From: a virus
Length of the DNA stretch: 64,000 nucleotides
Virus record (IMG/VR): IMGVR_UViG_3300013123_000005
Coordinates: 1 to 64,000 of that record
Reading direction: 5' to 3' (one strand)
Shown here piece by piece: positions 5,011-64,000 of the stretch (position 1 is its first letter; the number at the start of each line of letters is the position of its first letter). Position numbers and translations under genes: made by a program. The notes beneath the pieces are model-generated. The model saw nothing but the letters and a program-made list of their open reading frames with translations. It ran no database searches and was not told the origin of the DNA.

Positions 5011-5613
5011 ATGAAAACGATCATGGAATCTTGGAGAAAACGAATGCTTTCAGAGTCCGAAAACGATCAGACTCTTCAGATGCTCTTGTCTAAGTCTGCT
5101 ACATTCAGGAAACTGTGGCAAGATATGCACGAAAGCATTGAAGATACCAAATTTCATCTAGGCGAAACAACCCAGGAACACACTCGAAAAGTCGTATCAG
5201 CATTGCGAGAGTTGTCAAAAGATCTTCCAGAAGCCAAACGAACACTATTTGAGCTTCTTGGATTCTTGCATGATATTGGCAAGCCTTCGACTCGTAAATG
5301 GAACGATGAAAAAGGTAAGGTAGTCTTTTATGGTCACGATAAGGCTGGCAAGGAACTAGCGGCAAAAGTGCTCGAAGAGATTGCCTATGAAAACAAAGAC
5401 CTTTTGCTAAGTCTGATTGGGCATCATATGGATATCTTTCAAGCTCTTAACACCAAGCAGTTTGCCTTCTTGGCAAAAGACAAGCGATTTCCATATATTG
5501 AAGAACTAGCCTATATGGCAAAGGCAGATACGCTGGCAATCAACAAGGATCTTAGCAAAGAAATTGATGAGCTAGTAGTCAAAGTAAAGGAATTGAGAAA
5601 CAGTGCAAAATAA
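5011..5613 (+). CDS. HD-domain phosphohydrolase
   Basis: A 200-residue HD-superfamily metal-dependent phosphohydrolase. Visible ligands: His in EHT (near residue 57), LHDIGKP with His87-Asp88, a GHD and later GHH histidines, and a distal Asp near AKADT. The arrangement resembles the HD domain attached to some CCA-adding enzymes (2'-phosphatase, 2',3'-cyclic phosphodiesterase), here as a separate protein upstream of a kinase and a CCA enzyme. The N-terminus MKTIMESWRKRMLSES is amphipathic and contains L13-S-E15-S16, a possible prohead-protease site. No strong ribosome site; the start could also be the ATG at 5023. The substrate is not determinable. Confidence 0.85.
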   Translation: MKTIMESWRKRMLSESENDQTLQMLLSKSATFRKLWQDMHESIEDTKFHLGETTQEHTRKVVSALRELSKDLPEAKRTLFELLGFLHDIGKPSTRKWNDEKGKVVFYGHDKAGKELAAKVLEEIAYENKDLLLSLIGHHMDIFQALNTKQFAFLAKDKRFPYIEELAYMAKADTLAINKDLSKEIDELVVKVKELRNSAK

Positions 5614-6682
5614 GCATCCAAATATCAAGCAGGTTGCTGCGGATACAGCATTAGCTCTTGATTTGTTTTCGGAAGCTTTGTTGGCTGACGCAAATGATGA
5701 AAAGACAAAAGACGTTGTTCAGAAGATCAAGAGCGACGAATTTGAGAAACCAGATCCACAGCGATTCTTGCGGTCAGTCAGTACTGATGCCAAGCATCCA
5801 GAAATGTTGTCAGCTTATTCAACTGCTAATTATGTGACAATGAAGCTGTTCAAGCTTGAAGGCTATAACATCGGATATGCAATCAAATCAGACGGTGATC
5901 TTGTATCTGTTCATAACAACGAGCACGATGTAGCTGGCATTGGAGAGATTTTAGTTGAAAGTGCCGTATCGCATGGAGCAACAAAGCTCGATCACTTTGA
6001 TATACCCATTTTAAATAAAATTTATCAGAAATTCGGCTTTAGGGAATATAAGCGTTATCCGTTCGATCCTCAATATGTTTCAGCCGACTTTATTCGAAAG
6101 TATGGAAAACCGGACGTAATCATGCGAAGCAGAACATTGTCAGAAAACAAAATGAAAGAAATCATGCACAATTTCATGTTGTCTGAATCTTTGTTTGGAC
6201 TTGATGAAGCGGTGGATAGCCGACCAGAACTATATTTGCCAGTTGGCATTAGCGGTTCTGGTAAGTCTTCGTATATCCGAAAGAATTTTGATCCATCCAT
6301 CGTTATTGAACCAGATGCTATTCGCAGGGAAGTAACCGGTTCTGTTAGCGATCAGTCACAAGAGAACAAGGTTTGGGGAATCGTCTTTGCAAGACTGCGA
6401 AAGACTCTACAGCAATATGGTAAGGCAGTGTTGGACGCAACGAATGTTCGTTCCAGAAATCGAATGAGCGTTCTCAAGATGTTCAAAAACGCAAAGAAAA
6501 TTGCCATTGTATTTGACGCCGATCCGGAAATTGCAAAGCAGCGAGTTGCAAAAGATATCTCCAACAAGGTCGATAGAAGCAACGTACCAGCGGACGTAAT
6601 TGATCGTCAATATGCAGCTTTCAAGCAAGATTATCCTCTGATCAATCAACAGTTTGACGAGGTATTTCACGTTAAATCGTAA
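5603..6682 (+). CDS. GNAT-like / P-loop kinase fusion protein
   Basis: A 359-residue two-part protein with a GTG start overlapping the HD gene. Residues about 70-180 resemble a phage GNAT-like domain (GYAIKSDGDLVSV, KFGFREYKRYPFD); this is tentative. Residues about 208-359 are an AAA_33 / polynucleotide-kinase-type domain with Walker A GISGSGKSS at 215-223 and a DATN motif, consistent with RNA or DNA 5' kinase activity. The linker carries M-LSES (cleavage would be after E195) and LDEA (after E202), both of prohead-protease type, just before the kinase domain. The linker start looks like a buried N-terminus, so two cargo genes may have fused. Confidence 0.8.
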   Translation: MQNKHPNIKQVAADTALALDLFSEALLADANDEKTKDVVQKIKSDEFEKPDPQRFLRSVSTDAKHPEMLSAYSTANYVTMKLFKLEGYNIGYAIKSDGDLVSVHNNEHDVAGIGEILVESAVSHGATKLDHFDIPILNKIYQKFGFREYKRYPFDPQYVSADFIRKYGKPDVIMRSRTLSENKMKEIMHNFMLSESLFGLDEAVDSRPELYLPVGISGSGKSSYIRKNFDPSIVIEPDAIRREVTGSVSDQSQENKVWGIVFARLRKTLQQYGKAVLDATNVRSRNRMSVLKMFKNAKKIAIVFDADPEIAKQRVAKDISNKVDRSNVPADVIDRQYAAFKQDYPLINQQFDEVFHVKS

Positions 6683-6699
6683 TAAGGAACCAACATTTA

Positions 6700-8376
6700 A
6701 TGTTTGACGATAAAAAATGGCATCAGGTACTTCGTGAATCAATTTTAGAAGAAGACGAATCTCTTCGTTACGCTTCAAAAGACTATCGAGCAATCGATCC
6801 TCATAATCCACCTTCAATTCAAGAAATTTTAACCAATTGGGTTCAAAAAAATATTGCTCTATATGATGAACATATTCATGCTTATTATCCTGTCAAGCAG
6901 TTGATTCCTTGGCGAGAATACACTTGGTCTAGACAAAATGCTCGAATGTCTCCAGAGGAATACGACGATCTTAAATCTGACATTGCCGAACGAGGTATTC
7001 AAAGTCCATTGATGATTGTTCTTGGCAGAAACGGAAAAGCCAAGATTGGTGAAGGAAACCATAGATTAGCAATTCTAATTGAACTAGGTTATACCGGTCT
7101 TGTTCCAGTTAGATTTTTATTTCATCAAAATGTCGAGAAAAACAGTCAAAATCTATATGAAAGCAAGCTAGCCGAATCTCAAAAAAGTTTCAAACTCCTT
7201 GAAGCTGCTGATATCGGTGGCAAAACCGTCAAGATGATTATGCGAACAATCATGCATGCTGGTGGAAAGCCATATATCATTGGTGGCTCTGTACGCGATG
7301 AAATGATTGGCAAGGAAACTAGATCAAAAGATATCGATTTTGTTGTATGCGGTCTTCCACTAGAATCAATTGCTAATGCTCTCCGGTCTCTCGGCAAGGT
7401 TAATATGGTTGGCAAGTCTTTTGGAGTTGTCAAGGCGACCATCGAAGGTGACGAATATGATTTCGCCATTCCAAGAGCCAAAGAAACAAGAGTTGGGTCT
7501 GGTCATGGAGACTTTGAAATTGTCTTAGATCCTAACGCTCCAATTGAAGAAGATCTTTCTAGGCGAGATTTTACCATCAATGCTCTAGCAAAAGATCCTT
7601 CTGGTAAAATCATTGATATTTTTGGAGGAATTCAAGACCTCAAAAACGGTATTATTCGTGCTGTTGGCATTCCAAAAGAACGTTTTGCAGAAGATCCATT
7701 AAGAATGCTCAGAGCAATTCAATTTGCAACAAGATTCAATTTTGATATTGAACCAAAGACTGCTCAAGCGATTCGAGAAAATAGAGCAGAATTAAGACGA
7801 ATTTCTTCAGAACGAATCTTTGAAGAGTTTACGAAAGCGTGGACAAAGGGATTTGCTGATTCAAGAAAGCTAATTCTGCTATTGAACAAACTTGCCGTTG
7901 GAACAACTTTATTTGGAGTCGATTTTGAGCCTATTGAATGGCAAAATAAAGAACCAGACTATTCAATTAAAACAGCTTTCGTTTCTTGCTTTGTTCGTGG
8001 AGGTGATGAAACAATCCTCAGAGCACCAACGGATCTGTTAGCTCTTTTGTATCTCGCAAGGATCGTATCCAAGACAGAAGCAGAGAACCTTTACAAGATC
8101 AAGAATATTCGAAGAACCAGATTAGAAGATGTAGCGAAAGTCTTCAGAAACATTATGGATATTCGTTTCAGAAATCTAGCTGAAAAGCTAGAAAAAATTC
8201 TTGAGCTGCCAATTGAACCAAAAGAACTTGACGTAACAGGCGAACAACTAATGCAACTAGGTCTTTCTGGTGCTCAGATTGGCGCAGCACAGTACAAAGT
8301 TTTGGAAGCAGTTCATCAAGGTCAGATTCAAAACAATCACCAAGAAATTCTAAACTTTATTTCTCCATTAAATTAA
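6700..8376 (+). CDS. ParB/Srx-like domain fused to CCA tRNA nucleotidyltransferase
   Basis: A 558-residue fusion. Residues about 65-145 form a ParB/sulfiredoxin-like domain with GEGNHR at 117-122. Residues about 185-440 are a class II CCA-adding/poly(A) polymerase head: GGSVRD at 195-200, DID at 211-213 as catalytic carboxylates, RRDFTINAL, and EDPLRMLRAIQFATRF. The C-terminus is helical. It should add or repair the 3' CCA of tRNA, including the tRNA-Arg at 21257, which lacks an encoded CCA. The N-terminus has L11-R-E13-S14, and the linker has LYES, LAES and LLEA at about 152-169, all matching L-x-E/[AS]. The activity of the ParB-like part is unknown. Confidence 0.9.
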   Translation: MFDDKKWHQVLRESILEEDESLRYASKDYRAIDPHNPPSIQEILTNWVQKNIALYDEHIHAYYPVKQLIPWREYTWSRQNARMSPEEYDDLKSDIAERGIQSPLMIVLGRNGKAKIGEGNHRLAILIELGYTGLVPVRFLFHQNVEKNSQNLYESKLAESQKSFKLLEAADIGGKTVKMIMRTIMHAGGKPYIIGGSVRDEMIGKETRSKDIDFVVCGLPLESIANALRSLGKVNMVGKSFGVVKATIEGDEYDFAIPRAKETRVGSGHGDFEIVLDPNAPIEEDLSRRDFTINALAKDPSGKIIDIFGGIQDLKNGIIRAVGIPKERFAEDPLRMLRAIQFATRFNFDIEPKTAQAIRENRAELRRISSERIFEEFTKAWTKGFADSRKLILLLNKLAVGTTLFGVDFEPIEWQNKEPDYSIKTAFVSCFVRGGDETILRAPTDLLALLYLARIVSKTEAENLYKIKNIRRTRLEDVAKVFRNIMDIRFRNLAEKLEKILELPIEPKELDVTGEQLMQLGLSGAQIGAAQYKVLEAVHQGQIQNNHQEILNFISPLN

Positions 8377-8388
8377 AATCTAATCTGC

Positions 8389-8417
8389 TTGACATTTATC
8401 TAAATCTAGGCTATACT
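8389..8417 (+). promoter_or_regulatory. sigma70-type promoter before the nucleotidyltransferase gene
   Basis: -35 TTGACA at 8389-8394, 17-base spacer, -10 TATACT at 8412-8417 followed by GTA. It lies in the 67-base gap before 8444, with a GGAGA ribosome site between. Confidence 0.9.
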
Positions 8418-8443
8418 GTATCTGCAATCGATGGAGACACGTA

Positions 8444-9454
8444 ATGTCGTTCAATATTCCCAAGCATACAATTCTTCTTACAATCGCTGGTTCTAGAGCA
8501 TATGGCATTCATCGCCCAGAATCGGACGTAGATATCAAAGGCGTGATTATTCCTCCTGTTGAATATCTGTACGGTACCAAGCGTTTCGAACAGTTCGATA
8601 AACCAGAAACAATCAAGAACGCATACTTTGATATGCTCAATGATGTGGAAAGGCAGGTTTCCAGAGATATCAAGCTCGAAGGATCTGCCTATGATCTTCG
8701 TAAGTTTGTAAGTCTTGCCGCAGAAAACAACCCAAATATTCTCGAAAGCTTGTTCTGTCGAGATGAAGAAGTAAGATTTATTACTCCGCTTGGACAGAAG
8801 CTAAGAGATAATCGAGACTTGTTTTTGAGCAAGAAGGTTCGTTATAGTCTTGCTGGTTATGCTTTTGCTCAGTTGCAGAGAATTAAGACTCACCGTGAAT
8901 GGCTGCTCAACCCTCCGAAGGTTGAACCGACCAGAGAGTTGTTTGGTCTGCCAACTGTTCACAAGACATTCCAGAGAGAGCACTTGAATGCCCTTCTTAC
9001 GCTCACAAAGCCTGTTTTGGAGAGCCTCGGGCTTTCTCGGGAAGGGATTGACCTGATCTTTAAAGAACGCGCTTACGAGGATGCTAGGCGTCATTGGGAG
9101 CAGTTTAAGAATTGGCAGAAAAATCGCAACCCTGCCCGTGCCGACATTGAAGCAAAATATGGATATGACACCAAGCACGGTGGTCATCTTTATCGTTTGC
9201 TTTCGATGGGCAAGGAAGCATTGCTGACTGGAAAGATCAACGTTTGGCGTGGTGATATTGACGCAGAACAGATTCTTGCAATTCGGGCAGGAATGTGGAG
9301 CTACGATCAGTTGATCGAATGGGCAACGAACATCGAAGCGGAGCTTGACGGACTCTATAAGTCTTGCACTTGTTTGCCTCACAGTCCTGATCGTGAAGGA
9401 ATTGATAAGTTGTGCGTTGAGCTTCACCAGGAATTTCATCAAACAAAGGAATAA
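8444..9454 (+). CDS. Pol-beta superfamily nucleotidyltransferase (RlaP-like)
   Basis: A 336-residue DNA polymerase beta superfamily nucleotidyltransferase. GSRAYG is at residues 16-21 and the metal-binding DVD at 28-30. The C-terminal half has the conserved YDTKHGGHLYRLL and MWSYDQLIEWA segments of phage and bacterial RlaP-like proteins, a family associated with RNA ligases. It likely transfers nucleotides to an RNA end or a protein; the substrate is unknown. It has its own promoter and is followed five bases later by the ligase gene. Unlike neighbours, it lacks the L-x-E N-terminal segment. Confidence 0.85.
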   Translation: MSFNIPKHTILLTIAGSRAYGIHRPESDVDIKGVIIPPVEYLYGTKRFEQFDKPETIKNAYFDMLNDVERQVSRDIKLEGSAYDLRKFVSLAAENNPNILESLFCRDEEVRFITPLGQKLRDNRDLFLSKKVRYSLAGYAFAQLQRIKTHREWLLNPPKVEPTRELFGLPTVHKTFQREHLNALLTLTKPVLESLGLSREGIDLIFKERAYEDARRHWEQFKNWQKNRNPARADIEAKYGYDTKHGGHLYRLLSMGKEALLTGKINVWRGDIDAEQILAIRAGMWSYDQLIEWATNIEAELDGLYKSCTCLPHSPDREGIDKLCVELHQEFHQTKE

Positions 9455-9459
9455 ATTAA

Positions 9460-10353
9460 ATGTCAAGCAATCTGATTCGCCCGATGCTGGCAGTTGACGT
9501 TAAAGACGTTGCCAACATCAAGTTTCCTATTTATGCTCAACCCAAGATCGATGGTATTCGATGCTTGAAGGTAAATGGGCAAATTGTTTCTCGTAATTTC
9601 AAGCCCATTCCAAACAAGTACATTCGTTCTGTTCTTGAACGAATTCTTCCAGAGGGCGTTGATGGAGAAATCGTTGGTGCAAATATGGAAGATTTTCAAG
9701 CAACCGTTAGTGCTGTCATGAATCGAGAAGGCGAACCAGAGTTTTATTACAACGCATTCGATTATGTAGAGGATGCTTTGTTTACTCCGTTTAATAATCG
9801 ATATGCAGCGCTCAAGGAATGGCACAATAGTCAGAATTCCAATATTGTTCGTCTTGTAGAAGTCAAATATATTGAAAATGTTGAAGAATTGCGCGCTTAT
9901 GAAAACGAATGTCTTTCTGCTGGTTATGAAGGTTTGATTCTTCGGAGCCTTTACGGCAAGTATAAGTGTGGTCGAAGCACCATTAATGAACAGCTTTTGC
10001 TTAAACTTAAACAGTTCCAAGATAGCGAAGCAAAAATTGTCGGGTACGAACCTCTAATGCACAACGAGAATGCCAAGGAGAGGGACGTATTTGGGGATTC
10101 CAAGCGTTCCAGCAAAAAGGACGGACTAGTTGCTATGGAAACCTTGGGAGCGCTTCTAGTGGTCGATAACGTCACAAACGTAGACTTTAAAATTGGTACA
10201 GGTTTTGATGCAGCTTTGCGTGAGCAGATTTGGCAAAATCGTGATACTTATATGGGAAAGCTTGTGAAATACAAGTATTTCGCGATTGGTGAAAAAGACA
10301 AGCCACGATTTCCTACGTTCCTTGGATTTAGACACGAGAACGATATGGATTGA
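9460..10353 (+). CDS. ATP-dependent DNA ligase (T7-like)
   Basis: A 297-residue ATP-dependent ligase. Motif I is QPKIDGIRC with the adenylated lysine at 29; VDGEIVG is motif III; EGLILR is motif IV; LLKLK is motif V. The C-terminus is a small OB-fold with KYKYFAIGEKDKPRFP. The size and compact OB match phage T7-type DNA ligases, though a dual RNA/DNA role is possible. It sits five bases after the RlaP-like gene, so it is in the same operon and completes a kinase/nucleotidyltransferase/ligase set. Confidence 0.9.
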   Translation: MSSNLIRPMLAVDVKDVANIKFPIYAQPKIDGIRCLKVNGQIVSRNFKPIPNKYIRSVLERILPEGVDGEIVGANMEDFQATVSAVMNREGEPEFYYNAFDYVEDALFTPFNNRYAALKEWHNSQNSNIVRLVEVKYIENVEELRAYENECLSAGYEGLILRSLYGKYKCGRSTINEQLLLKLKQFQDSEAKIVGYEPLMHNENAKERDVFGDSKRSSKKDGLVAMETLGALLVVDNVTNVDFKIGTGFDAALREQIWQNRDTYMGKLVKYKYFAIGEKDKPRFPTFLGFRHENDMD

Positions 10354-10376
10354 TCAGATGGAGATTTAAACGATAG

Positions 10377-12215
10377 TTGACGATTAGATTAATCCCGACA
10401 ACGTATGCCAGCCCGGCTGCGGCTTTAGCTGCTTGTGGTGCTGGTGATACGATCATCTTTGAAGCTGCTGCTAACTCTTCCTACACAAATCAAGATTTAT
10501 CTACAAAGGGAGCGACCGCCAATATTACGTGGCTGAATCAAAAAGGCTCCAAGATAACGATAACTTTAATTAATAATACTTCGCTGGTGCCCGGTAACGG
10601 TTGGATTTTTGGAAGCATTGAGGGCTCGGACTCGACTGCTTTCGATTTTTCTTGTGTGGGATCTCCTGGCGGTGCTGGTGGTTGTTGTTATATATCTTCC
10701 GGTAAGAGCGTCACGATGTATGACACGTGTATTCACGGAAACTCTTCTGGTGGTACAGCCGTTCGGTTGGAAGCCGGTGCGTCAAATGCTATTTTGGCGG
10801 CAAGGCGTTGTCAATTTCAAGCCTATACAATTTTTCCGAATAATGCGCTATCGGGCGCGTCGGTTCAGTTGACAACTAACGGTGGCTCTACGTCCAGGGC
10901 AATTTTAAGCGCCTACGATACGATATTTTATGGGCAGGGAGCCTCTGGTGGTACTGGAATTGAGTGCAGTGCTGGTGTCAGGGGTCAATATTATACTGAG
11001 CGTTGTACATTTCGTACAATGTCGTGGGGAATATATTTGCCCGGCATATTTGGTACAAATGGTTCAACTTCTCTTTATTGTGAATTTTATAATTTGGCAA
11101 TTGGCATTGCACATGCTGCTACTTTAAATCCTCAATTGGTCATTAAGCGCTGTACATTTGGAAACAACTCCATTACGGATTATCTGCGAAATGTTAACAG
11201 CAAAACGAACGTTGTCGTGGATTCTTGTTGGTTTGAGACAATGGAGGTTCAGGCTGGCGCGGCTTGGACAAAAAATGGATATGAAACGTGTACTGCGGGA
11301 ACTCCGGGTGCTAGCGACTTTGTTTGTTCTCACATTTCTGCTGCATTTACAAATTGGGCGTCATCTAATTTTGATATCGCCAGTTCTAGTTCTTTATTGG
11401 TAGGCACTGGCAATGACGCTGCTGGCGAACATTTAGATCGCGCCGGACGCCCGGCTGTCGTCGGTCTTTCTGATGTCGGCGCTTACGAATTGCAGTGTAC
11501 TGATCCCGCGTTTGGTGAGACAACATTAAATGCAACTTGCGCTGGTACTGTGGGCGACGCAGTTGTCTCTTGGACAACTGCCAGTATGGACGGTAGCTAC
11601 GATCTTTTTGGAATTTATTCTGGAAGTACTCAGCTTGGTACTGTTGGAATCACGACTGGATCTTTTGCTGTTACTGGTACTGTGGGTGAGGTGATAGTCT
11701 ATACACTCAAGGCTCGTTCTGGTTGCGACAGTATTACTTGGGTGACTGGTCCTACGGCTTCTTTTTCTTATTCTTCAGTTGCAGATTGGGGTGGTACAGA
11801 AGAGTTGAGTTTTTTTAGACTCTCCGAGACAGCCATTAATATTGCGTGGGATACTAGTTCGATCACGGGAGTCGTTAACGGTTATGATGTTTATGCGGAC
11901 GATGTTTTGGTTGCAGAATTGGGACTAGTTGATGAATGTGGAGCAACCGCTAGCTTCTTGTCAACTCACACCTATAAAATCAGTCTTATTGATGAATGTG
12001 GATATGAAGTGGATGGACCTACCGGCAGCTTTTACTTTGATTGGTTAATTCCTACTGACTTTGGCTGCTTTAAAATTAATCCATCAAATCACAACATACA
12101 ATCAGCGGTATGCGTTAGCTTTGATCATCTTCGAAACATTGAGCAAGTTCCTCTATCCTTGTCTCTTCCGGTAACGACTATTAGAAAAAACAAACCTTAT
12201 AGAGTTGGAACATAG
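10377..12215 (+). CDS. Beta-helix tail fibre or tailspike-like protein
   Basis: A 612-residue protein rich in Gly, Ser, Thr and Asn. Residues about 1-370 have the short repeated strand-turn pattern of a right-handed parallel beta-helix (pectin-lyase-like); residues about 375-580 look like Ig/FN3-type beta-sandwiches, with two similar DECG segments. The end is short and polar. Probably a receptor-binding or virion-surface protein. The TTG start at 10377 is supported only by the open frame and a distant GGAG. The coding DNA is visibly richer in GC-containing codons than neighbours, suggesting exchange as a host-range cassette. It stands apart from the other structural genes. Confidence 0.7.
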   Translation: MTIRLIPTTYASPAAALAACGAGDTIIFEAAANSSYTNQDLSTKGATANITWLNQKGSKITITLINNTSLVPGNGWIFGSIEGSDSTAFDFSCVGSPGGAGGCCYISSGKSVTMYDTCIHGNSSGGTAVRLEAGASNAILAARRCQFQAYTIFPNNALSGASVQLTTNGGSTSRAILSAYDTIFYGQGASGGTGIECSAGVRGQYYTERCTFRTMSWGIYLPGIFGTNGSTSLYCEFYNLAIGIAHAATLNPQLVIKRCTFGNNSITDYLRNVNSKTNVVVDSCWFETMEVQAGAAWTKNGYETCTAGTPGASDFVCSHISAAFTNWASSNFDIASSSSLLVGTGNDAAGEHLDRAGRPAVVGLSDVGAYELQCTDPAFGETTLNATCAGTVGDAVVSWTTASMDGSYDLFGIYSGSTQLGTVGITTGSFAVTGTVGEVIVYTLKARSGCDSITWVTGPTASFSYSSVADWGGTEELSFFRLSETAINIAWDTSSITGVVNGYDVYADDVLVAELGLVDECGATASFLSTHTYKISLIDECGYEVDGPTGSFYFDWLIPTDFGCFKINPSNHNIQSAVCVSFDHLRNIEQVPLSLSLPVTTIRKNKPYRVGT

Positions 12216-12217
12216 TA

Positions 12218-12802
12218 ATGGAATATAGTCGGTTATATTGCGATCTCGACGGAGTTCTTGTAAATTTCGATTTTGGTGCCGTAGAACGCTGTAATTTGGC
12301 AATGAAAAACGGCGAAGTATCGTCAAACTTGATTAAACAGGTTAGGCAAGATCTTGGACGAGATTATCTTTGGGTTGGTGATTTCGCAATGCACAAAAAA
12401 GAAAGTAATCCGAAATCTCTTCGAAAACTATTACATACCGTAATAGCAAAGAATCGTGAATTTTGGGCGACGTTGCCATTCATGCCTGATGGCGAACAAC
12501 TTTGGAGGGCAATTGGAAGCCGCGCTTATATTCTTTCAAAGCCAATGTCGGAAGAGTGCGCGCAAGGAAAAATAGAATGGTGTATCAAGAATTTGGGAAT
12601 TACAAAAAATAAAATCATATTGACATCGTGGGAATCCTCAAAAGATAAATCTGCATATGCAAAAAATGGAGAAACTCCTAACATTTTGATTGATGATTAT
12701 GCTGGATTTATTGAGCCATTTCGCGCTGTTGGTGGAATTGGTATTTTGCACACGAGCACACCAGACACATTGAGGCAATTGCAAAGGATTTTGTCTATTT
12801 AG
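12218..12802 (+). CDS. HAD-like phosphatase, 5'(3')-nucleotidase type
   Basis: A 194-residue HAD-superfamily enzyme. The nucleophile motif DLDGVLVNFD has Asp9 and Asp11; a Ser/Thr motif is present in the middle, and ILIDDYAGF near residue 165 supplies the acidic C-terminal motif. Size and motif spacing fit phage 5'(3')-deoxyribonucleotidases, but 3'-phosphatase activity on nucleic-acid ends cannot be excluded. It starts three bases after the fibre gene. Confidence 0.8.
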   Translation: MEYSRLYCDLDGVLVNFDFGAVERCNLAMKNGEVSSNLIKQVRQDLGRDYLWVGDFAMHKKESNPKSLRKLLHTVIAKNREFWATLPFMPDGEQLWRAIGSRAYILSKPMSEECAQGKIEWCIKNLGITKNKIILTSWESSKDKSAYAKNGETPNILIDDYAGFIEPFRAVGGIGILHTSTPDTLRQLQRILSI

Positions 12803-12805
12803 AAC

Positions 12806-14632
12806 ATGATGAAAATTACCGGTAACATTCAAAACGAATTAAAAGAAATGGTTATGGACTTCTATGATTTTGCCAAGCCATATATGAAATTTGATAAAGA
12901 TGTAACGAAAACCAATTTTGTTTCAGATAACGAAAATGCCAAGAAAATCTTGGGAATGACTGGATATTATAATCCAGAAGATTATTCCGTTACAATTTAT
13001 ACTGATCGGCGACACCCAAAAGACATATTACGTTCATTGGCACACGAGTTAGTGCATCATGCTCAAAATTGCAAAGGCGAATTTAATGATGGCTCTTTGG
13101 ATGAAGCAGCAGAAGAAGGTTATGCACAGGTTAATCCGAAGCTTCGAAGCATGGAAAAGCAAGCCATGCTCATCGGAAATATCTGCTTTCGAGATTGGGA
13201 AGATGGAATAAAGACCGGTCGAAACAATTCAAAAGCTCCTAGTTATATTGTAGAAAATCGAGAAAGGTATATTCGTTTGTTGAATCAAGAACAAAATGGA
13301 CTGTTGATGGAACGCGCCCTTAAGACTAAATGGAATCTATCAGAAGCTTATGAAGATCGATCTGTTGAACCAAATATGATGGAAGCAATTGGCGGAAATT
13401 TTGATCGAGTTAATGCTTTAGCGAAAAGATATCAGCAAACACAAGAAGATTCCGATCTTGAAGTGTTGAAACAGGCTTTCGAAGAAAACGTCGTACCAAT
13501 GTTGTCCCAGGCTGGATTGGATTACAAAGGATTTCACAAATACGATGCAATGCTCAAAAGAGAAACTGTTGCAGTGTTCAGAGCTTTGAAAACTGAATCT
13601 GATTATAAGGTTGCGAGAGTTCATATCGATTTAGATCCGTTGACGAAGCTATTTTCAACTTCAGTTGAAACTGATCACAATTTTCTAGAGCGGGATTGGA
13701 ATAGAATCGAAAAGGCAGTAGAATATATCAAACGTGCTCTTGGTCAAGGTCAAGAACCAATTGAAACGCAAGAAAAACCAAGTCTTAAGGAGAATACAGG
13801 AATGAAGAACGTTCCAAAGGCAGGAAAATTCAAGTACACAAAGAAAATCACAAAAGAGAATATCGCCAATATTGTTGAATCATATATGCGTAAGCTCAAG
13901 GAAAGCAAGGGAACACTAGGTCAGACTCAAATTAATGAGATGGTCGCCAACGTTGTCCGCTTCATGATGGAGCAGAATGACAAAAATATGAAGCCCGCTC
14001 AAGGTAAGCCAGCTGGTGCTATGGTGCAAGAGCAAGGCGACAAGAACATGAAGCCAGCGCAGGGCAAGCCTACTGGAGCAATGGTTCAGGAGCAGGGTGA
14101 TAAAAATATGAAGCCCGCCCAAGGAAAACCAAAGGGCGCGATGGTTCAGGAATCTGACGGTGCCAACGAATACAAGTACGAAAAGGCTGGTAACAAGCCA
14201 AAGGGTTCATTAGTTGAGGAAGATCTTGACAAGCTAGTCAATGAAGTGTTGGGTGAGTTTAACGAATCTTATGGCGACGTAGATCCTTCTGCACCTTGGT
14301 CTTCGGCTGATGAATTTGGCAATTCGACTCCAAGTGATGCTTATGGTCCTGGCGACACCTTCACCGGCAATCCTCGCGATGCCGGGCTAGAAACTGATGT
14401 TAACAACTATGCCGATACTGAGCTTGGAATGGACGAAGATATTGTTCCTCCAACTCCTGATGCAACAAATACTCTCACCGCTGAACCAGAACCAAACTGG
14501 CTATATGGTGATGAGCCTCTAGCCGAAGAAAAGGAAATTTATGAGCGTTGTGCTCCTGGCTCAAAAGATAAGCTTTATGAGGGTCGTCATAGTCGTACAG
14601 CCAAGAAGCTTCTTTCTTGGGCAGTTCGATAA
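12806..14632 (+). CDS. HExxH metallopeptidase-like protein with 20-residue repeats
   Basis: A 608-residue protein. Residues about 40-140 contain HELVHH (His80-Glu81-His84) and a following glutamate (E117), consistent with a zinc metallopeptidase. Residues about 392-450 hold three 20-residue repeats beginning DKNMKPAQGKP and ending GAMVQE. The remainder is acidic and Pro/Gly-rich with low complexity. L-x-E/[AGS] sites occur internally (LSEA, LKES). It could be a virion-associated protease or a packaged protein; a head-maturation role is only inference. Two in-frame ATGs start it; the first is used. Confidence 0.75.
   Translation: MMKITGNIQNELKEMVMDFYDFAKPYMKFDKDVTKTNFVSDNENAKKILGMTGYYNPEDYSVTIYTDRRHPKDILRSLAHELVHHAQNCKGEFNDGSLDEAAEEGYAQVNPKLRSMEKQAMLIGNICFRDWEDGIKTGRNNSKAPSYIVENRERYIRLLNQEQNGLLMERALKTKWNLSEAYEDRSVEPNMMEAIGGNFDRVNALAKRYQQTQEDSDLEVLKQAFEENVVPMLSQAGLDYKGFHKYDAMLKRETVAVFRALKTESDYKVARVHIDLDPLTKLFSTSVETDHNFLERDWNRIEKAVEYIKRALGQGQEPIETQEKPSLKENTGMKNVPKAGKFKYTKKITKENIANIVESYMRKLKESKGTLGQTQINEMVANVVRFMMEQNDKNMKPAQGKPAGAMVQEQGDKNMKPAQGKPTGAMVQEQGDKNMKPAQGKPKGAMVQESDGANEYKYEKAGNKPKGSLVEEDLDKLVNEVLGEFNESYGDVDPSAPWSSADEFGNSTPSDAYGPGDTFTGNPRDAGLETDVNNYADTELGMDEDIVPPTPDATNTLTAEPEPNWLYGDEPLAEEKEIYERCAPGSKDKLYEGRHSRTAKKLLSWAVR
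13979..14155 (+). repeat. 60-bp coding repeat, three copies
   Basis: Units at 13979-14038, 14039-14098 and 14099-14155 (last one slightly short). The protein unit is nearly invariant, while DNA copies differ mostly at third codon positions (GCC/GCA, AAG/AAA, GGT/GGC). The repeat therefore looks old and kept by selection on the protein. Confidence 0.9.
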
Positions 14633-14660
14633 ATCAAACTAAAATTATAAGAGGTCTATA

Positions 14661-15002
14661 ATGATTCCAGTTGCAGTATTAAATCGTCTTAAGAAACAAG
14701 CGCAACAGAGGCACGAAAAGCTGGTTCTCAATGTGCCACCGACAAAGCAAGATATCGTCACAACTGCGCCCGTTGCAATTGAAGAAAAAGTTCCAACAAT
14801 TACGGTGATCGAAACGTTTAAGGTGGGTCAAGAGTTGGCAGAAGAACCGTCAAGCGCAGTTGTAGATTCAATTCCGGAACCGGCAACAGTTCCAGAAATG
14901 ACAAAAAAAGAAATCATGAAGGCATTAACTGAGGCTGGTATCACATTCGACAAGTACCGAACTCGTGCCGAACTTTTGGAATTATTGCCAACGAATGATT
15001 AA
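14661..15002 (+). CDS. Small protein with HeH/SAP-like C-terminal domain
   Basis: A 113-residue protein with a good AAGAGG ribosome site. The N-terminal 25 residues are basic and helical, the middle is a Pro/Val/Glu-rich linker, and the last 35 residues (KKEIMKALTEAGITFDKYR) match the helix-extended-helix fold of HeH/SAP-like DNA- or RNA-binding segments. Possibly a small nucleic-acid-binding or scaffold-associated protein. It overlaps the next gene by eight bases. Confidence 0.65.
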   Translation: MIPVAVLNRLKKQAQQRHEKLVLNVPPTKQDIVTTAPVAIEEKVPTITVIETFKVGQELAEEPSSAVVDSIPEPATVPEMTKKEIMKALTEAGITFDKYRTRAELLELLPTND

Positions 15003-15231
15003 TCACGATGATATGACAAGAAGATTTCTTCTGTACGAAGGAGAAATGCAGGAATCAGGAGTCTTTTCCAGAATTCAAGCAATTCAAGATCTTCTGTCTA
15101 AAATCTCTCCAAAATCTCAAATGGACGTTCGACGTATCGAAATGATTGACGACAACCTAAGAGCATTACGTCGAATTGTCAGAGCCTTAACTTCAAAGGA
15201 TTCACAAGAAGCCGATATCTCAGGAGAATAA
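14995..15231 (+). CDS. Small helical protein with LYEG N-terminal site
   Basis: A 78-residue protein from the ATG at 14995; a shorter form from the ATG at 15013 is possible. RRFLLYEGEMQ at residues 9-19 includes L-Y-E-G, a prohead-protease-type tetrapeptide. The rest is a predicted helical hairpin ending in acidic residues. No family recognised. It is directly followed by the 781-residue multidomain enzyme. Confidence 0.65.
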   Translation: MINHDDMTRRFLLYEGEMQESGVFSRIQAIQDLLSKISPKSQMDVRRIEMIDDNLRALRRIVRALTSKDSQEADISGE

Positions 15232-15237
15232 AGTATC

Positions 15238-17583
15238 ATGCAACACTCTAGAATCTTGCTGACGGAGGGTGGTGTTGCAGGACACATGATGCACCTGTAT
15301 GAAAATCCAGATCTGTCTTTCACTGATATCAAGTCAATATTCTACAAAGCTGCAAATGGAAAGTTAGCCGGTACTGAAAAAACTGACGGTCAGAATCTAT
15401 ATGTTTCTTATTCTGTCAAGGAAAATCGTGCAAAAGCTGCCAGAAACAAGGGCAACATCAAGTCTGGTGGATTGAATGTTCAAGAGCTAGCAGAAAAATT
15501 TGCTGATCGTGGAGATTTAACTTATACGTTTACGGAATCTTTTGCGGCTTTCGAAAAAGCAATGCAGACTTTAGATGAAAAAACGCTGATTGGGATTTTT
15601 GGTCCGGACGCAAATGTGTTCTATAACGCAGAAATCATGGACCCTCGCAGTTCGAACGTTATTCATTATGATACAAAATCGTTAGTATTTCATCAAGTTG
15701 GCCATGCCGAATTCGAAAGAGAAACTGGCACGGTAAAAGATTCTGATGTTAGCGAAAATGTTAGACTTTTGAACAAAACAGTTCAAGAGATTGAAAAGCG
15801 TTTGCAGCAGACCGCTGGAGATGAGTATCGTCTTAAGATTAACGCGGTGCGTTATCTCAAGTTTATGAGCGAACAGAAGCCCTATGAGCATGCAATTGTT
15901 AGGCTCGATCGCGAATTGCAAAAATATCACTTAACTGAAGAAGAAACGATATCGGATTATTTGGTTGCGCGTATGTTACCAGAGGTAAACAAGCGCGTAC
16001 CAAACGCTAGTAAAGAAGCAAAGGCAATGTTGCTTAAGCGTTTATTGGGCGCAGAAGGATTCTCTGCCAACGACGTATTGGCTTTATTTCCAAAAGAACA
16101 GAAGCAATTAATTCGTGATATTATCAGAGAACAGTCGACTCTACTAAAGATGGCAATTTGGCCAATAGAAGACATTGTGCATGATTTTTCTGTCGAAGCG
16201 TTAAAGGGATTGCAGTCTGCTTTTATCCTTGACAACGAAAAGGAAGTGCAAAGACTTCGAGATGAGGTTGCTACGGCTGTTGCAGCAATCAAAAATTCTA
16301 AAAACGAAGATGCAATGGTTATTTTGCAGCAACAAATGAAGAAACTGAAGGAAGTTGACAATATTCATACTGCTGCCGAAGGCTTTGTGTTCGTTTATAA
16401 CGGACAAACATACAAATTTACTGGCAACTTTGCGCCGATGAATCAGTTGTTGGGATTGTTCAAGTATGGTCGCGGCAATATTCCGGCAATGATTAAAGAG
16501 GAAGATGGTGCCGTCACAGAACCAGTAGAAATCGATTCTGGTTTTCATTTGCGTGGCGGAAGAAAGTTGGCTTTGATTCCTGGTGCATTTAAGCCACCTC
16601 ACAAGGGTCACTTGGAGATGGTTAAAGCGTATGCTCAACATTCAGACAAAGTGATTGTTTTTATGTCGCCATTGCCAAGAAGAATGCCGGATGGTAAAGA
16701 AATGACATTCCAGATCGCAAAAAGCATTTGGATTACATATCTCAAGGCAGAGAAGCTTAATGATCGAGTTGAAGTGCTAGAATCTCCAGTCAATTCTCCA
16801 GTTGGAGCAGTATACTTGTTCGTCGCAAACGAGAAAGATGATCCTGAATGGGCGCAACCAGGGGATATTATCGCTTTGGGCGTATCGACAAAGGGTGGAG
16901 ATCAAGAAAGGTTCGAAAAGGCTCAAAAATATGCCAGAGAAGGTGTAACTGTATTGAGTGGCGAAGAGGCTGCTGTAGCACCAACTATTGAGGGTGGTGT
17001 TGAATTATCCGCTAGTGATATGCGCGCCGCCATTACGAATGGCGATCTCAAATCGTTCACTAGATTTATTCCAGATTCTTTGAGACAATATGCGGAACAA
17101 ATCATGGTCAACATTCAAAAGAAGCTGGAACAGCAATCAAATGCCTTAATCAAGGAGCGATTGATTCGTTTTATTGACAAGAAATTATTCGAAGCTCTTA
17201 CTGGAAGGATCGATAACAGTCTAGATATTCCGAGAGAAGCTTTGCCGCAAATCAAGGATATGGACGATTTTCGAAAGTACTTAAACCGTCGTAGTCGCTC
17301 AATCAAATATGTTGAAAAATCGATTCGACCAAGAGATATAATGCCAATTCAAAAGGAATTTGATCCTGCAAAAGTAGAAAAATTCAAGAAATGGCTGATT
17401 GATAATCCTCAAGAACCTAGAAAACCAGTCGTGATATCAAAAGATTTGTATGTTATCGATGGACATCATCGTTGGTTGGCGGCTATGGATCATCCAAATA
17501 CACCGGTTGAAGTGTTGCAAATCAATTTACCGTTTGCTGAAGTACTTAAATTAGCTAAACAATATGCAGCCACGAAGGCATAA
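15238..17583 (+). CDS. Three-domain ligase-like / HxGH nucleotidylyltransferase / ParB-like protein
   Basis: A 781-residue fusion. Residues about 10-410 resemble the covalent nucleotidyltransferase (ligase) superfamily: EKTDGQN with candidate lysine 48, then EGFVFVYNG near 381 and YKFTG near 393, like motifs IV and V. Residues about 445-640 are an HxGH nucleotidylyltransferase: IPGAFKPPHKGH with HKGH at 455-458, then an SASDMR segment, as in NMN adenylyltransferases. Residues about 690-781 are a ParB/Srx-like domain with DGHHR at 741-745. The N-terminus has L8-T-E10-G11 and the linker after the second domain has LFEA (cut after E652). NAD synthesis or repair-linked adenylylation are the leading guesses. 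Confidence 0.8.
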   Translation: MQHSRILLTEGGVAGHMMHLYENPDLSFTDIKSIFYKAANGKLAGTEKTDGQNLYVSYSVKENRAKAARNKGNIKSGGLNVQELAEKFADRGDLTYTFTESFAAFEKAMQTLDEKTLIGIFGPDANVFYNAEIMDPRSSNVIHYDTKSLVFHQVGHAEFERETGTVKDSDVSENVRLLNKTVQEIEKRLQQTAGDEYRLKINAVRYLKFMSEQKPYEHAIVRLDRELQKYHLTEEETISDYLVARMLPEVNKRVPNASKEAKAMLLKRLLGAEGFSANDVLALFPKEQKQLIRDIIREQSTLLKMAIWPIEDIVHDFSVEALKGLQSAFILDNEKEVQRLRDEVATAVAAIKNSKNEDAMVILQQQMKKLKEVDNIHTAAEGFVFVYNGQTYKFTGNFAPMNQLLGLFKYGRGNIPAMIKEEDGAVTEPVEIDSGFHLRGGRKLALIPGAFKPPHKGHLEMVKAYAQHSDKVIVFMSPLPRRMPDGKEMTFQIAKSIWITYLKAEKLNDRVEVLESPVNSPVGAVYLFVANEKDDPEWAQPGDIIALGVSTKGGDQERFEKAQKYAREGVTVLSGEEAAVAPTIEGGVELSASDMRAAITNGDLKSFTRFIPDSLRQYAEQIMVNIQKKLEQQSNALIKERLIRFIDKKLFEALTGRIDNSLDIPREALPQIKDMDDFRKYLNRRSRSIKYVEKSIRPRDIMPIQKEFDPAKVEKFKKWLIDNPQEPRKPVVISKDLYVIDGHHRWLAAMDHPNTPVEVLQINLPFAEVLKLAKQYAATKA

Positions 17584-17610
17584 TTATAGAAACGAGTTGG
17601 AGCGATAAGC

Positions 17611-18480
17611 ATGTTTATCATCGAAAGAGCAAATTTCATCGAAGAAATTAAAGAAGAAAGACTTCTCAAGGAATCGATGCAATCATTAATTCAGCAAAGA
17701 CTAAAGATTGTTACAGAACAGAAAAGTCGTCTTAAAAAAGCAATCAAGAAAATCATCATTAATGAGATGGACACGGTACCACATAGATCTACTGGAATTA
17801 ACGTTCTAGAAGATCTGTTGAAAAAGATTGTACCAGTACTGGAGGATAGTTATAAGCAACTAACTACCGATGAATCTCAGAGAGAATCATTCCGTGCTCA
17901 TATTGTGAACGCTATACAAAACGCCCTAGCTCCTACTAGAGTAAGCGTAGATGGTGGTGAAGAAGAGACAGATGACGGAGGTATCCTTAATATCGACGAG
18001 AATGCCCTTTTTGAAGCTTTGAAAGAAGCAGACGTAGATGTAGAGGTTGGAGATTCGGAAGCAGCCAAAATCGATTCTGACGCTGAAAACGAGGATGCTT
18101 TCATCGGAGATAATCCACCAGAAAACATTAATACAGAAGTACAGCCTGGAGAAGAAGAAAAGTTTATCGACATTGATGGAGATGGTAAGGAAGATCTAGC
18201 ACCGGATGAATTTACAATTTCTGGAGAAGAAGAAACAGGACGTAACTTTGCTGCTGAAGCTTTCGAAAAAGTAGAAAAGCAGATTGTTGATGCATATAAG
18301 AAATTAGCCAATGAATCTGACAGAGAGACTTTCTATGATTATTTATTAACAAATATTCGTCTATATTTCGACAAATTTGAGGATGAACTACAAACATCAC
18401 TGCCAGAACCTACTTCAGAACAGTACGAATCAGAAAAGAACAAACTAGAACAAACTGATCAGAATCAAAATGCTTTTTAA
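17611..18480 (+). CDS. Acidic coiled-coil protein with calcium-loop-like motif
   Basis: A 289-residue protein. Residues 1-60 are charged and helical and contain LLKES (L19-K-E21-S22), another L-x-E/S site. The middle is very acidic. DIDGDGKED near residue 189 has the spacing of an EF-hand/dockerin calcium loop (D-x-D-x-D-G-x-x-D). The C-terminus is helical. It may be a capsid-core, scaffold-like or packaged protein. It is the last gene before a 215-base gap with a hairpin and a new promoter. Confidence 0.7.
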   Translation: MFIIERANFIEEIKEERLLKESMQSLIQQRLKIVTEQKSRLKKAIKKIIINEMDTVPHRSTGINVLEDLLKKIVPVLEDSYKQLTTDESQRESFRAHIVNAIQNALAPTRVSVDGGEEETDDGGILNIDENALFEALKEADVDVEVGDSEAAKIDSDAENEDAFIGDNPPENINTEVQPGEEEKFIDIDGDGKEDLAPDEFTISGEEETGRNFAAEAFEKVEKQIVDAYKKLANESDRETFYDYLLTNIRLYFDKFEDELQTSLPEPTSEQYESEKNKLEQTDQNQNAF

Positions 18481-24479: not shown

Positions 24480-25151
24480 ATGAAAGCCTATATCAAAGAA
24501 TCCTCTTCTAAGTCCCGAAAATCTTTGGGCGAATTCTCAATCTTCAATAAAATCACAGTATACGTCAATAATCCCTTACCACAAGACGTGGATATCGTCG
24601 AAGCAATTGCGCTTTTGGAACAGAGACTTCCAGAGAGCCTAGAATATGACGTTGAAGAAGTCATGATCGGAAGTTTTGCGTTTCTTAAGACAAGAGAGGT
24701 TGCAAGTGTTTTCGAGAACGGAACGATTTACGTATCGAACGAACAAGATTCAATAATGACTTTGGTAGATGATATCGTACATGAGTTTGCACATTCACTG
24801 GAAGCTTCTTATGCAAGAGCATTATATGCTGACAAAAAGTTAGCTGGTGAATATGTTGGGAAGAAAGATCGATTGTTAGTACTGTTAAAGCAAGAAGGAA
24901 TCGATGTTGCCGATGAATGGTATTCTCAGACTGAATTTGATGAGAATTTTGATGATTTTCTATTTAGAGAAGTTGGATATCCAGTCGTAACCAATCTTTC
25001 GATGGACTTGTTCCCGTCTGCTTATGCAGTAACAAGTCTTCGAGAATATTTGGCAGTTGGCTTCGAGGTATTTTGTACAGAAGAAAGAGAAATGCTAAAA
25101 GATCAGTGTCCGACGTTATATCAAAAACTACAGGAATTGTTTAATTCCTAA
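24480..25151 (+). CDS. HExxH metallopeptidase-like protein
   Basis: A 223-residue protein with HEFAHS (His101-Glu102-His105) in a DDIVHEFAHSLEAS helix, the usual zinc site of gluzincin-type peptidases; a later Glu (LREYLAVGFEVF) may be the third ligand. The start at 24480 follows GCAGGAG. The N-terminus MKAYIKESSSKSRKS contains I5-K-E7-S8, again of I/L-x-E/S type. A small hairpin (GACACT/AGTGTC, 24443-24460) lies just upstream. Proteolysis is plausible but not shown. Confidence 0.75.
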   Translation: MKAYIKESSSKSRKSLGEFSIFNKITVYVNNPLPQDVDIVEAIALLEQRLPESLEYDVEEVMIGSFAFLKTREVASVFENGTIYVSNEQDSIMTLVDDIVHEFAHSLEASYARALYADKKLAGEYVGKKDRLLVLLKQEGIDVADEWYSQTEFDENFDDFLFREVGYPVVTNLSMDLFPSAYAVTSLREYLAVGFEVFCTEEREMLKDQCPTLYQKLQELFNS

Positions 25152-26008: not shown

Positions 26009-27283
26009 ATGGGTGAAGAAAAAAAGATTCGATTAATGACCATTTCCGACAATCCAATCGGAAAACCAACTGGCGTCGGTCTTCAAACCAGATACATGAT
26101 TGAAGGTTTGTTGAAAACCGGTAAGTATCAAGTCGCTTCCTTAGCAGCAACCGCTGCAAATCAAAATATGAATCCAATCAAAACACAAGAATATGGTGAC
26201 GCTTGGGAAATCCTGCCCATTAATGGCTTCGGAGAACCAGAAGTATTGCGAGCCGCCCTAAGATTGAAGAAGCCAGATATTCTTTGGTTCATGACAGATC
26301 CAAGATATTATTGGTGGCTGTGGAATATGGAAAATGAGATTCGCACCAATTGTTACACCGTGTATTATAACATTTGGGATAACTTACCATATCCAACATA
26401 TAACAAAAAATACTACGAATCAACAGATACGCTAGTAGCTATCAGCAAGCTGACTTTCGATATTAATAAAACTGTAGCTCCAAATACTGAATGTTTGTAT
26501 TTGCCGCATGCAGTAGACCCGAAGTACTTCAAGCCCCTTCCAGAAGAGAGCGTTAAGACTTTCAGGAAGAACTCTTTAGGACCGAATGCAGAAAAGTTCA
26601 TTTTCTTTTGGAACAATCGAAACCAGAAGCGCAAGCAAGCAGCTAGTTTGATTTGGGCATATAAGGACTTTTGCGATAAGATTGGTCACGATAAGACAAT
26701 TCTGTTGATGCACACAGATCCAAAAGAAGCTGCTGGACCAGATTTAGAGGCAAACGTTAAGGCGACAGGACTAACGAACGGAGAAGTATTATTTTCTACC
26801 GATAAGGCATTATCGTTTGAGCGTCTTGGAGTGCTTTACAACGCCTGTGATTGCGGAATTAACATCAGCGATTCTGAAGGTTTCGGCTTGAGCTTGCTTG
26901 AAACTCTTGCATGCGGCAAGCCAGCAATTGCGACGTTGACAGGCGGAATGGTAGAACAGATTATCAATGATAATGGTGTTCATCTTGGAGTTGGACTAAA
27001 ACCATCGGCTAGTCCAGTTGTAGGTTCTCAAATAATTCCTTATATTTATGAAGATCATGTAAGTCGCGAACGGGTTGTTGAAGCAATGACCAAAATGTAC
27101 TTTATGAGTAAAGAAGAGCGAAATAATCTCGGCAAGTTAGCAGTAGAACACGTCAATAAACACTTTAATTTTGAACAATATACAAATCGTTGGGATGAAA
27201 TTCTAACTTCCGTATATCAGAAAGGACCAACATGGCCAAGAGTGGATTACAAATCGTGGAGTCTTACGGAGATGAAGAGTTAG
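26009..27283 (+). CDS. GT4-like glycosyltransferase 1
   Basis: A 424-residue GT-B glycosyltransferase. The N-terminal domain opens with a Gly-rich loop (GKPTGVGLQTRYM); the C-terminal donor site has SDSEGFGLSLLETLACGKP, the EGFGxxxxE motif of GT4 enzymes. A sugar-nucleotide donor is expected. It follows the nuclease gene by 12 bases and overlaps the small gene at 27232. Donor and acceptor are not determinable. Confidence 0.85.
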   Translation: MGEEKKIRLMTISDNPIGKPTGVGLQTRYMIEGLLKTGKYQVASLAATAANQNMNPIKTQEYGDAWEILPINGFGEPEVLRAALRLKKPDILWFMTDPRYYWWLWNMENEIRTNCYTVYYNIWDNLPYPTYNKKYYESTDTLVAISKLTFDINKTVAPNTECLYLPHAVDPKYFKPLPEESVKTFRKNSLGPNAEKFIFFWNNRNQKRKQAASLIWAYKDFCDKIGHDKTILLMHTDPKEAAGPDLEANVKATGLTNGEVLFSTDKALSFERLGVLYNACDCGINISDSEGFGLSLLETLACGKPAIATLTGGMVEQIINDNGVHLGVGLKPSASPVVGSQIIPYIYEDHVSRERVVEAMTKMYFMSKEERNNLGKLAVEHVNKHFNFEQYTNRWDEILTSVYQKGPTWPRVDYKSWSLTEMKS

Positions 27284-27480
27284 CAACATATAGTTTTGTT
27301 TTGAGATATGGTAATAAGTTAGCCAATAGTGTTTGTCATAAATTGTTTATCAAAGCTCCCGTTGAAAAAGAAGATGTTAGTGCAGTTGCAGCATTAATTA
27401 AAGAGCAGTTGGACTTATTGACAGTTGAACAGTTGGCTGAATGGGTAAGAGAAATAGAGCGTTATAGGGACGGAGAATAA
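27232..27480 (+). CDS. 82-residue hypothetical protein in sugar cluster
   Basis: An 82-residue acidic helical protein. It overlaps the end of the first glycosyltransferase and is followed one base after its TAA by the next one. No motif recognised; perhaps a small partner of the transferases. Confidence 0.6.
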   Translation: MAKSGLQIVESYGDEELATYSFVLRYGNKLANSVCHKLFIKAPVEKEDVSAVAALIKEQLDLLTVEQLAEWVREIERYRDGE

Positions 27481-62369: not shown

Positions 62370-62801
62370 ATGAATCTTAAAAAGATGATAAACGAGGCTT
62401 TCGAAGATCACATTAAGCAAGCCCAAGAAAAGCAACCAGAAATTATTCGTCATATCAAGTTGCAACTTCAAAGATTCGTTGAAGATGAATCGGTATTCAC
62501 AGATATGATCGATGCTTTTGAACGCATTATCCGTATGGCTATGGCAGATAATACTTCTGATTCTGTTGACAAGATTGCAAGAGATCTAGACTTAGCTCCA
62601 GCTTTTGTCAGTTTTCATACCAGAATAGCGAAGAGAGATAAGAGCGATGGTTTACTGAATAAGTCGATTGACGTTAAACAGATTGCTTCAACAATTCAGA
62701 AACCAAAAGCCAGAGAATATGTACCTTCCTATCGTGATGAGAATGAAATGATTTATGGCAATTCTTATTCAGAGCCCGGTGGACATAGAACGGGAGATTA
62801 A
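62370..62801 (+). CDS. Small helical protein between paralogs
   Basis: A 143-residue helical protein. The opening MNLKKMINEAFEDH contains I7-N-E9-A10, a prohead-protease-type site, and resembles the start of the gene at 63927. A duplicated 10-bp purine element (62341-62350, 62351-62360) gives two AAGGA sites before the ATG. No family recognised. Confidence 0.65.
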   Translation: MNLKKMINEAFEDHIKQAQEKQPEIIRHIKLQLQRFVEDESVFTDMIDAFERIIRMAMADNTSDSVDKIARDLDLAPAFVSFHTRIAKRDKSDGLLNKSIDVKQIASTIQKPKAREYVPSYRDENEMIYGNSYSEPGGHRTGD

Positions 62802-63926: not shown

Positions 63927-64000
63927 ATGAATTTAGCCAAAGAACAACTTAAGAAAATGATTCAAGAAGCTTTGAGCGAGGTTCTTTCAGAAGCCACCTT
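63927..64000 (+). CDS. Partial gene, truncated by window end
   Basis: ATG at 63927 with AAGGAAG upstream; 24 codons are present. MNLAKEQLKKMIQEALSE and following residues contain two I/L-x-E-A sites (IQEA, LSEA), like the gene at 62370. The remainder is outside the window. Confidence 0.7.
   Translation, partial: MNLAKEQLKKMIQEALSEVLSEAT

Follow-up and report, generated by a model that had tools for sequence, protein, structure and literature searches.

Short leaders ending in L/I-x-E are encoded at the N termini of proteins of a virus record that also encodes a T4 gp21-type S77 head protease. The leaders are in excess over chance, are reused as modules in relatives, and have counterparts placed in the linkers of multi-domain enzymes. 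We think it probable that they are T4-style capsid-targeting leaders, that the interdomain motifs are cut sites, and that the cargo enters the next host; docking, cleavage, packaging, and injection are the steps that we infer from these features.

N-terminal L/I-x-E motifs and the head protease

The window is the whole stretch of DNA that was analyzed, i.e., positions 1 to 64,000 of a virus record of 82,396 bases (G000); the other 18.4 kb of the record were analyzed too. An earlier note on the window had proposed that enzymes encoded at 5011-18480 are packaged in the capsid, cut into domains after L/I-x-E where A, G, or S follows, and injected. We called 90 proteins in G000 and then set two starts by hand to those of the earlier note, one at 5011 and one, for a 78-aa protein, at 14998 (the codon following the ATG of 14995). 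All the tetrapeptides that the note had named are present in the sequence where it placed them.

[LI]xE[AGS] was found within residues 1 to 20 of 18 of the 90 proteins, compared to 3.35 when each N terminus was shuffled (p 0.0005) and 5.8 carriers expected from internal windows of these proteins. The enrichment for which the note had requested a test is present, and it holds outside 5011-18480 (13 of 78 proteins versus 2.9 in shuffles). Control motifs with D, K, or Q in place of E ([LI]xD[AGS], [LI]xK[AGS], and [LI]xQ[AGS]) each occurred at 1 of 90 N termini, without enrichment. Random viral contigs showed no excess (69 of 1236 genes, or 5.6%, versus 4.8% internally), and the difference between these contigs and G000 was significant (Fisher p 7.5e-6). 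LxE is also in excess across the whole G000 proteome (319 versus 241 shuffled). We conclude that the N-terminal motif in G000 is genuine and well beyond chance. Chance is expected to account for about one-third (about six) of the 18 matches; the genes at 10377, 43187, and 61326 may be such cases. The note, too, had pointed to chance matches in other genes. Confining cleavage to sites with A, G, or S at P1′ proved too narrow: in the leaders of relatives, E, Q, or D also directly follows L-x-E, and T4 processing requires just L/I-x-E (PMC9026906).

Features of the window that carry L/I-x-E leaders or internal sites
Feature	Position (strand)	Description
HD-domain hydrolase	5011..5613 (+)	Pfam HD, 9e-13
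HD hydrolase, leader	5011-5055	MKTIMESWRKRMLSE then S; type A tag; LSES, E15
Two-domain protein	5603..6682 (+)	N-terminal domain, then AAA_33 (polynucleotide-kinase-like) P-loop kinase, Pfam 212-341
Two-domain protein, linker (~residues 185-207)	6155-6223	LSES195, LDEA202, directly before AAA_33
ParB-like domain plus CCA-adding (poly A polymerase family) enzyme	6700..8376 (+)	PolyA_pol, 2.5e-24, at 192-320
ParB-CCA protein, leader	6700-6738	MFDDKKWHQVLRE then S; LRES, E13
ParB-CCA protein, linker (~residues 151-177)	7150-7230	LYES154, LAES159, LLEA168; CCA domain from 192
Putative zinc-protease-like protein (HELVH)	12806..14632 (+)	Internal LSEA180, IVES358, LKES366, LYEG592
78-aa protein	14995..15231 (+)	Leader MINHDDMTRRFLLYE then G at 14995-15039; LYEG, E15
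781-aa protein	15238..17583 (+)	Ligase-like (KTDG motif), adenylyltransferase-like, and ParB-like domains
781-aa protein, leader	15238-15267	MQHSRILLTE then G; LTEG, E10
781-aa protein, linker site	about 17155-17232	LFEA652, before last domain
Acidic 289-aa protein	17611..18480 (+)	Leader ends LLKE then S (17611-17673); LKES, E21
M90-like metallopeptidase	24480..25151 (+)	Slightly under Pfam cutoff; leader MKAYIKE then S; IKES, E7
143-aa protein	62370..62801 (+)	Short type-B-like leader MNLKKMINE then A; INEA, E9
58-aa protein, start	63927..64000 (+); ends 64103 in G000	Type B leader MNLAKEQLKKMIQE then ALSEVLSE, then A; IQEA (E14), LSEA (E22)

The ATG of the HD hydrolase lacks a Shine-Dalgarno sequence, yet its leader fits MKLIMENWRxxLxE and so matches the conserved tag described below. 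The start of the 78-aa protein is uncertain: the ATG at 14995 has no Shine-Dalgarno sequence, the ATG at 15046 has one, and with the latter start LYEG is lost. The protein encoded at 12806 contains 13 LxE sites (6.1 in shuffles) and matches a metallopeptidase family in Pfam below threshold. Around residues 390 to 450 of this protein, the segment MVQEQGDKNMKPAQGKP is repeated near-perfectly. A block at 26009-33984 resembles, by eye, sugar or surface-polysaccharide genes (glycosyltransferase-, aminotransferase-, and epimerase-like).

The earlier note had suggested that the rest of the genome be searched for a gp21-like protease. Such a gene, of the T4 gp21 S77 type, lies beyond the window at 78113-79846 of G000 (L003:14113-15846), with matches to PF03420 (Peptidase_S77) at G000:79352-79762 (E 3.8e-21) and to the PHROG head maturation protease (1.9e-45). 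It is seemingly split by an in-frame intein, and the terminase large subunit gene (L003:6937-9000; G000 70937-73000) seemingly holds one too. A T4-type portal (gp20) and terminase are encoded in the same head region (PHROG). Contig G047, which is 99.99% identical to G000 across 23.4 kb, extends beyond the end of the record and encodes a major head protein (gp23 of the T4-type module) with LTEG10, LLEG35, and LREA60. It also encodes a long acidic, LxE-rich protein with 18 LxE sites, assigned as a scaffold by position and composition only. Other genes of G047 include one for ribosomal protein bS21 amid the head genes (L411:12345-12572) and one for a NUDIX hydrolase that opens with MKLYE then AE (L411:3-971, minus strand), possibly a further leadered enzyme.

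Leader types A and B in other viruses

The leader of the HD hydrolase is a member of a conserved tag, MKL[IL]MENWRx[YF]LxE (type A), found in marine viral contigs on at least 100 proteins that are otherwise unrelated. We searched IMG/VR with a DNA pattern for MKxxMENWR, which fixes residues 1 to 9 only, and obtained at least 120 stretches, compared to 3 with the reversed pattern. Among the matches listed, position 11 was Y or F in 86 of 103, position 12 was L, I, V, or M in 80 of 103, and position 14 was E in 73 of 103. Conservation reached 2.4 bits at E14 and was 0.2 to 0.6 bits from position 16 onward; the tag terminates at L-x-E. Only the leaders of the tagged proteins align, and the remainders are unrelated. 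Domains of the tagged proteins include GNAT, NUDIX, AAA_33, zeta-toxin-like kinases, DNA methylase, M23, and tRNA-ligase cyclic phosphodiesterase (CPD), and up to four tagged genes follow one another. Lys, Leu, and Glu are abundant in the leaders, which have a helix-like character. All six codons are used for each of Leu and Arg, in free variation, indicating that selection acts on the peptide. The free variation of synonymous codons also led us to reject the idea that the tag spreads as a DNA element.

The same pattern, applied to 257 Gb of genomes from bacteria and archaea (GTDB), matched 86 stretches, of which about 4 were tag-like, 1 of these in a protein that a viral contig encodes as well. 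Nearly all 86 matches were short open frames or lay inside long frames, and we rejected a bacterial occurrence of the tag. By inspection of their sequences, the long frames resemble glucose-6-phosphate dehydrogenase or an esterase. A few bacterial MAG contigs (L348, L360, and L374) carry a type A tag; these are probably mis-binned phage contigs, and the tagged protein of L360 resembles one in viral locus L115. A tblastn search of cultured phages with a tag-like 25-mer gave a single, chance match in Microviridae. Literature searches, including one by the letters of the tag, found no published description of it, and as far as they show, the type A tag, the breadth of its cargo, and the internal tags are undescribed.

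A second leader, MKLTExxLKxIIxE (type B), adjoins head genes in G000 and in the 484-kb phage LR756508, and leaders of this type cluster around the gp20-gp21 region in both. In LR756508 (L130 and L292), runs of small type-B-tagged proteins are encoded close to the protease gene and at ~220 kb. The last domain of the 781-aa enzyme has ParB-like relatives that stand alone; these carry type A leaders in four contigs (G003, G006, G007, and G017) and type B leaders in three (G002, G042, and G046). Types A and B thus look interchangeable on the same ParB-like domain.

An S77 gene was found in 14 of 24 type A contigs (10 of 10 that are at least 119 kb long), in 5 of 6 type B contigs, and in 2 of 15 control contigs. 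The association across all tagged contigs was significant relative to the controls (Fisher 0.0016), which is supportive rather than decisive, because most controls are shorter than the largest tagged contigs.

Domain boundaries and the putative cargo enzymes

Of 33 mostly tagged records, 24 encode a protein related to the 781-aa enzyme or to any one of its domains. In six family members, a short leader with a terminal LxE precedes Gly; these are the members from the window (LLTE/GG), G041 (LLLE/GG), G023 (MLLE/GG), G006 (LLLE/GP), G009 (LLNE/GG), and G011 (LLLE/GP). The other members with a readable start begin with Met-Gly, and an in-frame stop usually lies a short distance upstream of these starts (G001 is an example). 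A cut after Glu in the former, or removal of the start Met in the latter, would give leadered and leaderless homologs an identical Gly end, and this shared end is the strongest hint from sequence alone that the cut is real. The enzyme is leaderless in 10 of 16 contigs with a readable start; hence, many phages have no tag on it, and its packaging would not be universal.

We determined where LxE[AGS] falls in 17 family members. There were 32 sites outside the domain cores and 8 inside (0.54 versus 0.10 per 100 residues, about 5-fold rarer inside; Fisher 2e-6), and within-segment shuffling gave 17.2 linker sites (maximum, 29), although the homologs are not independent and these p-values are therefore optimistic (pseudo-replication). 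LxD, LxK, and LxQ showed no bias between cores and the rest. The cores are depleted of LxE as such (55 versus 92 in shuffles). Tetrapeptides that the earlier note had placed in the linkers of the proteins at 5603, 6700, and 15238 are all there (see the table), and 8 of the 10 sites in these three multi-domain proteins are N-terminal or in linkers, with boundaries drawn partly by eye. In an AlphaFold model of the 781-aa protein, the strict sites at 10 and 652 both lie in segments with pLDDT below 50, a helix at 613-655 passes through site 652, and the ParB part is poorly modeled; fold comparison with the PDB recognized the adenylyltransferase domain alone.

Fusion of tagged genes would explain the internal sites. 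In G015, a stand-alone relative of the N-terminal domain encoded at 5603 opens with a tag-like leader, MKQIMDKWRTHYKRLATQNVLAE then S. The G015 homolog of the 781-aa enzyme carries, as judged by inspection, a C-terminal fusion of acidic sequence like the 17611 protein, and the junction contains LDES and INES. The ParB-like part of the 6700 protein matches a stand-alone LR756508 protein with the leader MKLQNILYE then S; the ParB-CCA protein as a whole has few relatives among the tagged contigs searched. The earlier proposal of a packaged and cut enzyme set is supported in part. It is well supported comparatively as regards head-targeting leaders with S77 processing (S77 gene, modular tag, co-occurrence of the tag with S77, shared predicted mature end, and L-x-E at the end of type A); as regards cutting of enzymes into domains, it finds statistical support in the concentration of sites in linkers and in the same domains standing alone elsewhere with their own tags.

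The region at 5011-18480 encodes an HD hydrolase, an AAA_33 kinase, a CCA-adding enzyme, an RlaP-type nucleotidyltransferase, an ATP-dependent ligase, and the 781-aa protein, whose KTDG ligase motif was read from the sequence. Such enzymes are typical of RNA end repair. The HD, CCA, and 781-aa proteins are tagged, and the kinase lies behind a linker tag. The RlaP-type nucleotidyltransferase (8444) and the ATP-dependent DNA ligase (9460), together spanning 8444-10353, have no leader, so an RNA-repair kit would be tagged only in part. Injection of such a kit is attractive but unproven and is the most speculative part of our reading. Comparison with a library of defense genes gave one likeness, that of the HD domain to Cas3-type HD domains, which is uninformative. 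The one experimental link is indirect: mass spectrometry of virion preparations from Vi01-like phages detected a protein with a ParB N-terminal domain (PMC10892097). The related protein of Salmonella phage rabagast carries a structural annotation that follows Dickeya phage LIMEstone; we looked in the sequence of this Ackermannviridae ParB-like protein (rabagast_59) for a leader and recognized none.

A model of capsid targeting and its alternatives

We propose that a T4-type head is built on a scaffold core and matured by the gp21-like S77 protease. The leaders, most of which are amphipathic helices of basic character with L/I-x-E at their end, would dock chosen proteins on the core as the T4 capsid-targeting sequence does. 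A cut by S77 after the glutamate would then strip the leader and leave the mature protein within the head. Multi-domain proteins would be fused tagged genes in which old leaders persist as linkers, and the protease would part their domains as well. The cargo would pass into the next host together with the DNA, where the HD hydrolase, polynucleotide-kinase-like kinase, CCA enzyme, and ligase-like enzyme could act early in infection as an RNA-repair kit, countering, e.g., tRNA-cleaving host defenses.

It is quite conceivable, although we lean against it, that processing is limited to the N-terminal leaders, with the multi-domain enzymes remaining whole and their linker sites persisting as inert relics of gene fusion. 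Such sites could be masked by a helix shared across the linker, as the modeled helix spanning site 652 illustrates. The number of linker sites, above even the maximum of the within-segment shuffles, argues against inert relics, and the presence of several sites in one linker (three in the 6700 protein) suggests upkeep. An unlikely explanation is that the tagged proteins, chiefly the small proteins with type B leaders encoded next to the protease, are parts of the prohead core that are degraded and expelled. T4 gp67, gp68, and gp22 are core proteins with that fate, T4 core proteins have LIEA, IPEA, and IAEA close to their N termini, type B leaders cluster near gp20-gp21 in both genomes noted above, and the protein in the scaffold position is rich in LxE. 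However, type A leaders are carried by recognizable enzymes, and the cores of the 781-aa family are LxE-poor amid an LxE-rich proteome, which fits proteins that survive the protease.

We consider it improbable that the leaders dock to some other phage structure, such as the replication machinery or a membrane, with L-x-E merely reflecting the composition of an amphipathic helix. The leaders do have the helix-like, Lys-, Leu-, and Glu-rich character that this would require, but shuffles that keep composition fail to reproduce the motif, and LxD, LxK, and LxQ are not enriched. The type A tag also stops at L-x-E, leadered and leaderless homologs converge on the same Gly, and the tag and S77 are found together. 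Very improbable, finally, is the selection by eye of short chance motifs in Glu- and Leu-rich proteins. Random matches would supply the expected six of the 18 N-terminal sites, but the significance relative to shuffles, also beyond 5011-18480, and the flat result for random contigs refute chance as the source of the whole set.

Capsid-targeting leaders with interdomain cut sites could be part of something broader, which we put forward tentatively and regard as rather doubtful: a widespread, hitherto undescribed type A/B capsid-import code that marks a large set of injected enzymes in marine T4-like phages, with fused tagged genes acting as polyproteins cut in the head and, in the present phage, RNA-repair cargo delivered ahead of phage gene expression. 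Injected proteins are normally learned phage by phage, through virion proteomics. If the leaders do have the function proposed here, those of many uncultured marine phages could be read from sequence, and the tag would flag kinases, acetyltransferases, NUDIX enzymes, methylases, and others as injected. The head protease could then split fusion proteins into individual enzymes, and short peptides would be available for loading enzymes into phage heads.

Known systems differ in how closely they resemble these leaders. In phiKZ and SPN3US, many ejected head proteins are cut after glutamate, with redundant propeptide sites (PMC9026906, PMC10052503). The phiKZ motif is S/A-x-E, whereas the motif enriched here has L/I at P3, and a shared leader like type A is undescribed for these phages as far as our literature search found. 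Targeting of DarB in phage P1 is similar, in that the first 30 residues of this large protein carry it, and also a reporter, into the head (PMC9024508). Within the 781-aa enzyme, only the ParB-like domain was similar to a DarB-like protein, that of a Burkholderia phage. Unlike the situation here, the P1 protease is of another kind (Pro resembles HK97 gp4), and no consensus leader has been found for the P1 Dar proteins. The T4 proteins IPI, IPII, IPIII, and Alt have capsid-targeting N termini cut by gp21, an S77 protease as here, and T4-type head genes are likewise common to both; the short N-terminal leader of these T4 proteins starts with MK, ends with an aromatic or hydrophobic residue followed by I/L-x-E, and is reused on divergent proteins (PMC9026906, PMC3012670). 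Leaders here have ~7 to 20 residues, end in L/I-x-E, and occur on unrelated proteins. The T4 IPII/IPIII leader is MKTYQEFIAE then A, with which type A shares MK- and [FY][LI]xE; the T4 leaders examined lack the ENWR core. In contrast to T4, the leader here is longer (~14 residues, with an MENWR core or a type B helix), is found on many enzymes rather than on small basic proteins, and occurs several times in succession and repeatedly inside multi-domain proteins. With these differences, and with a likeness to the IPIII leader that is partial, the S77 gene, the T4-type head module, and the leaders on unrelated proteins fit capsid targeting of the T4 kind.
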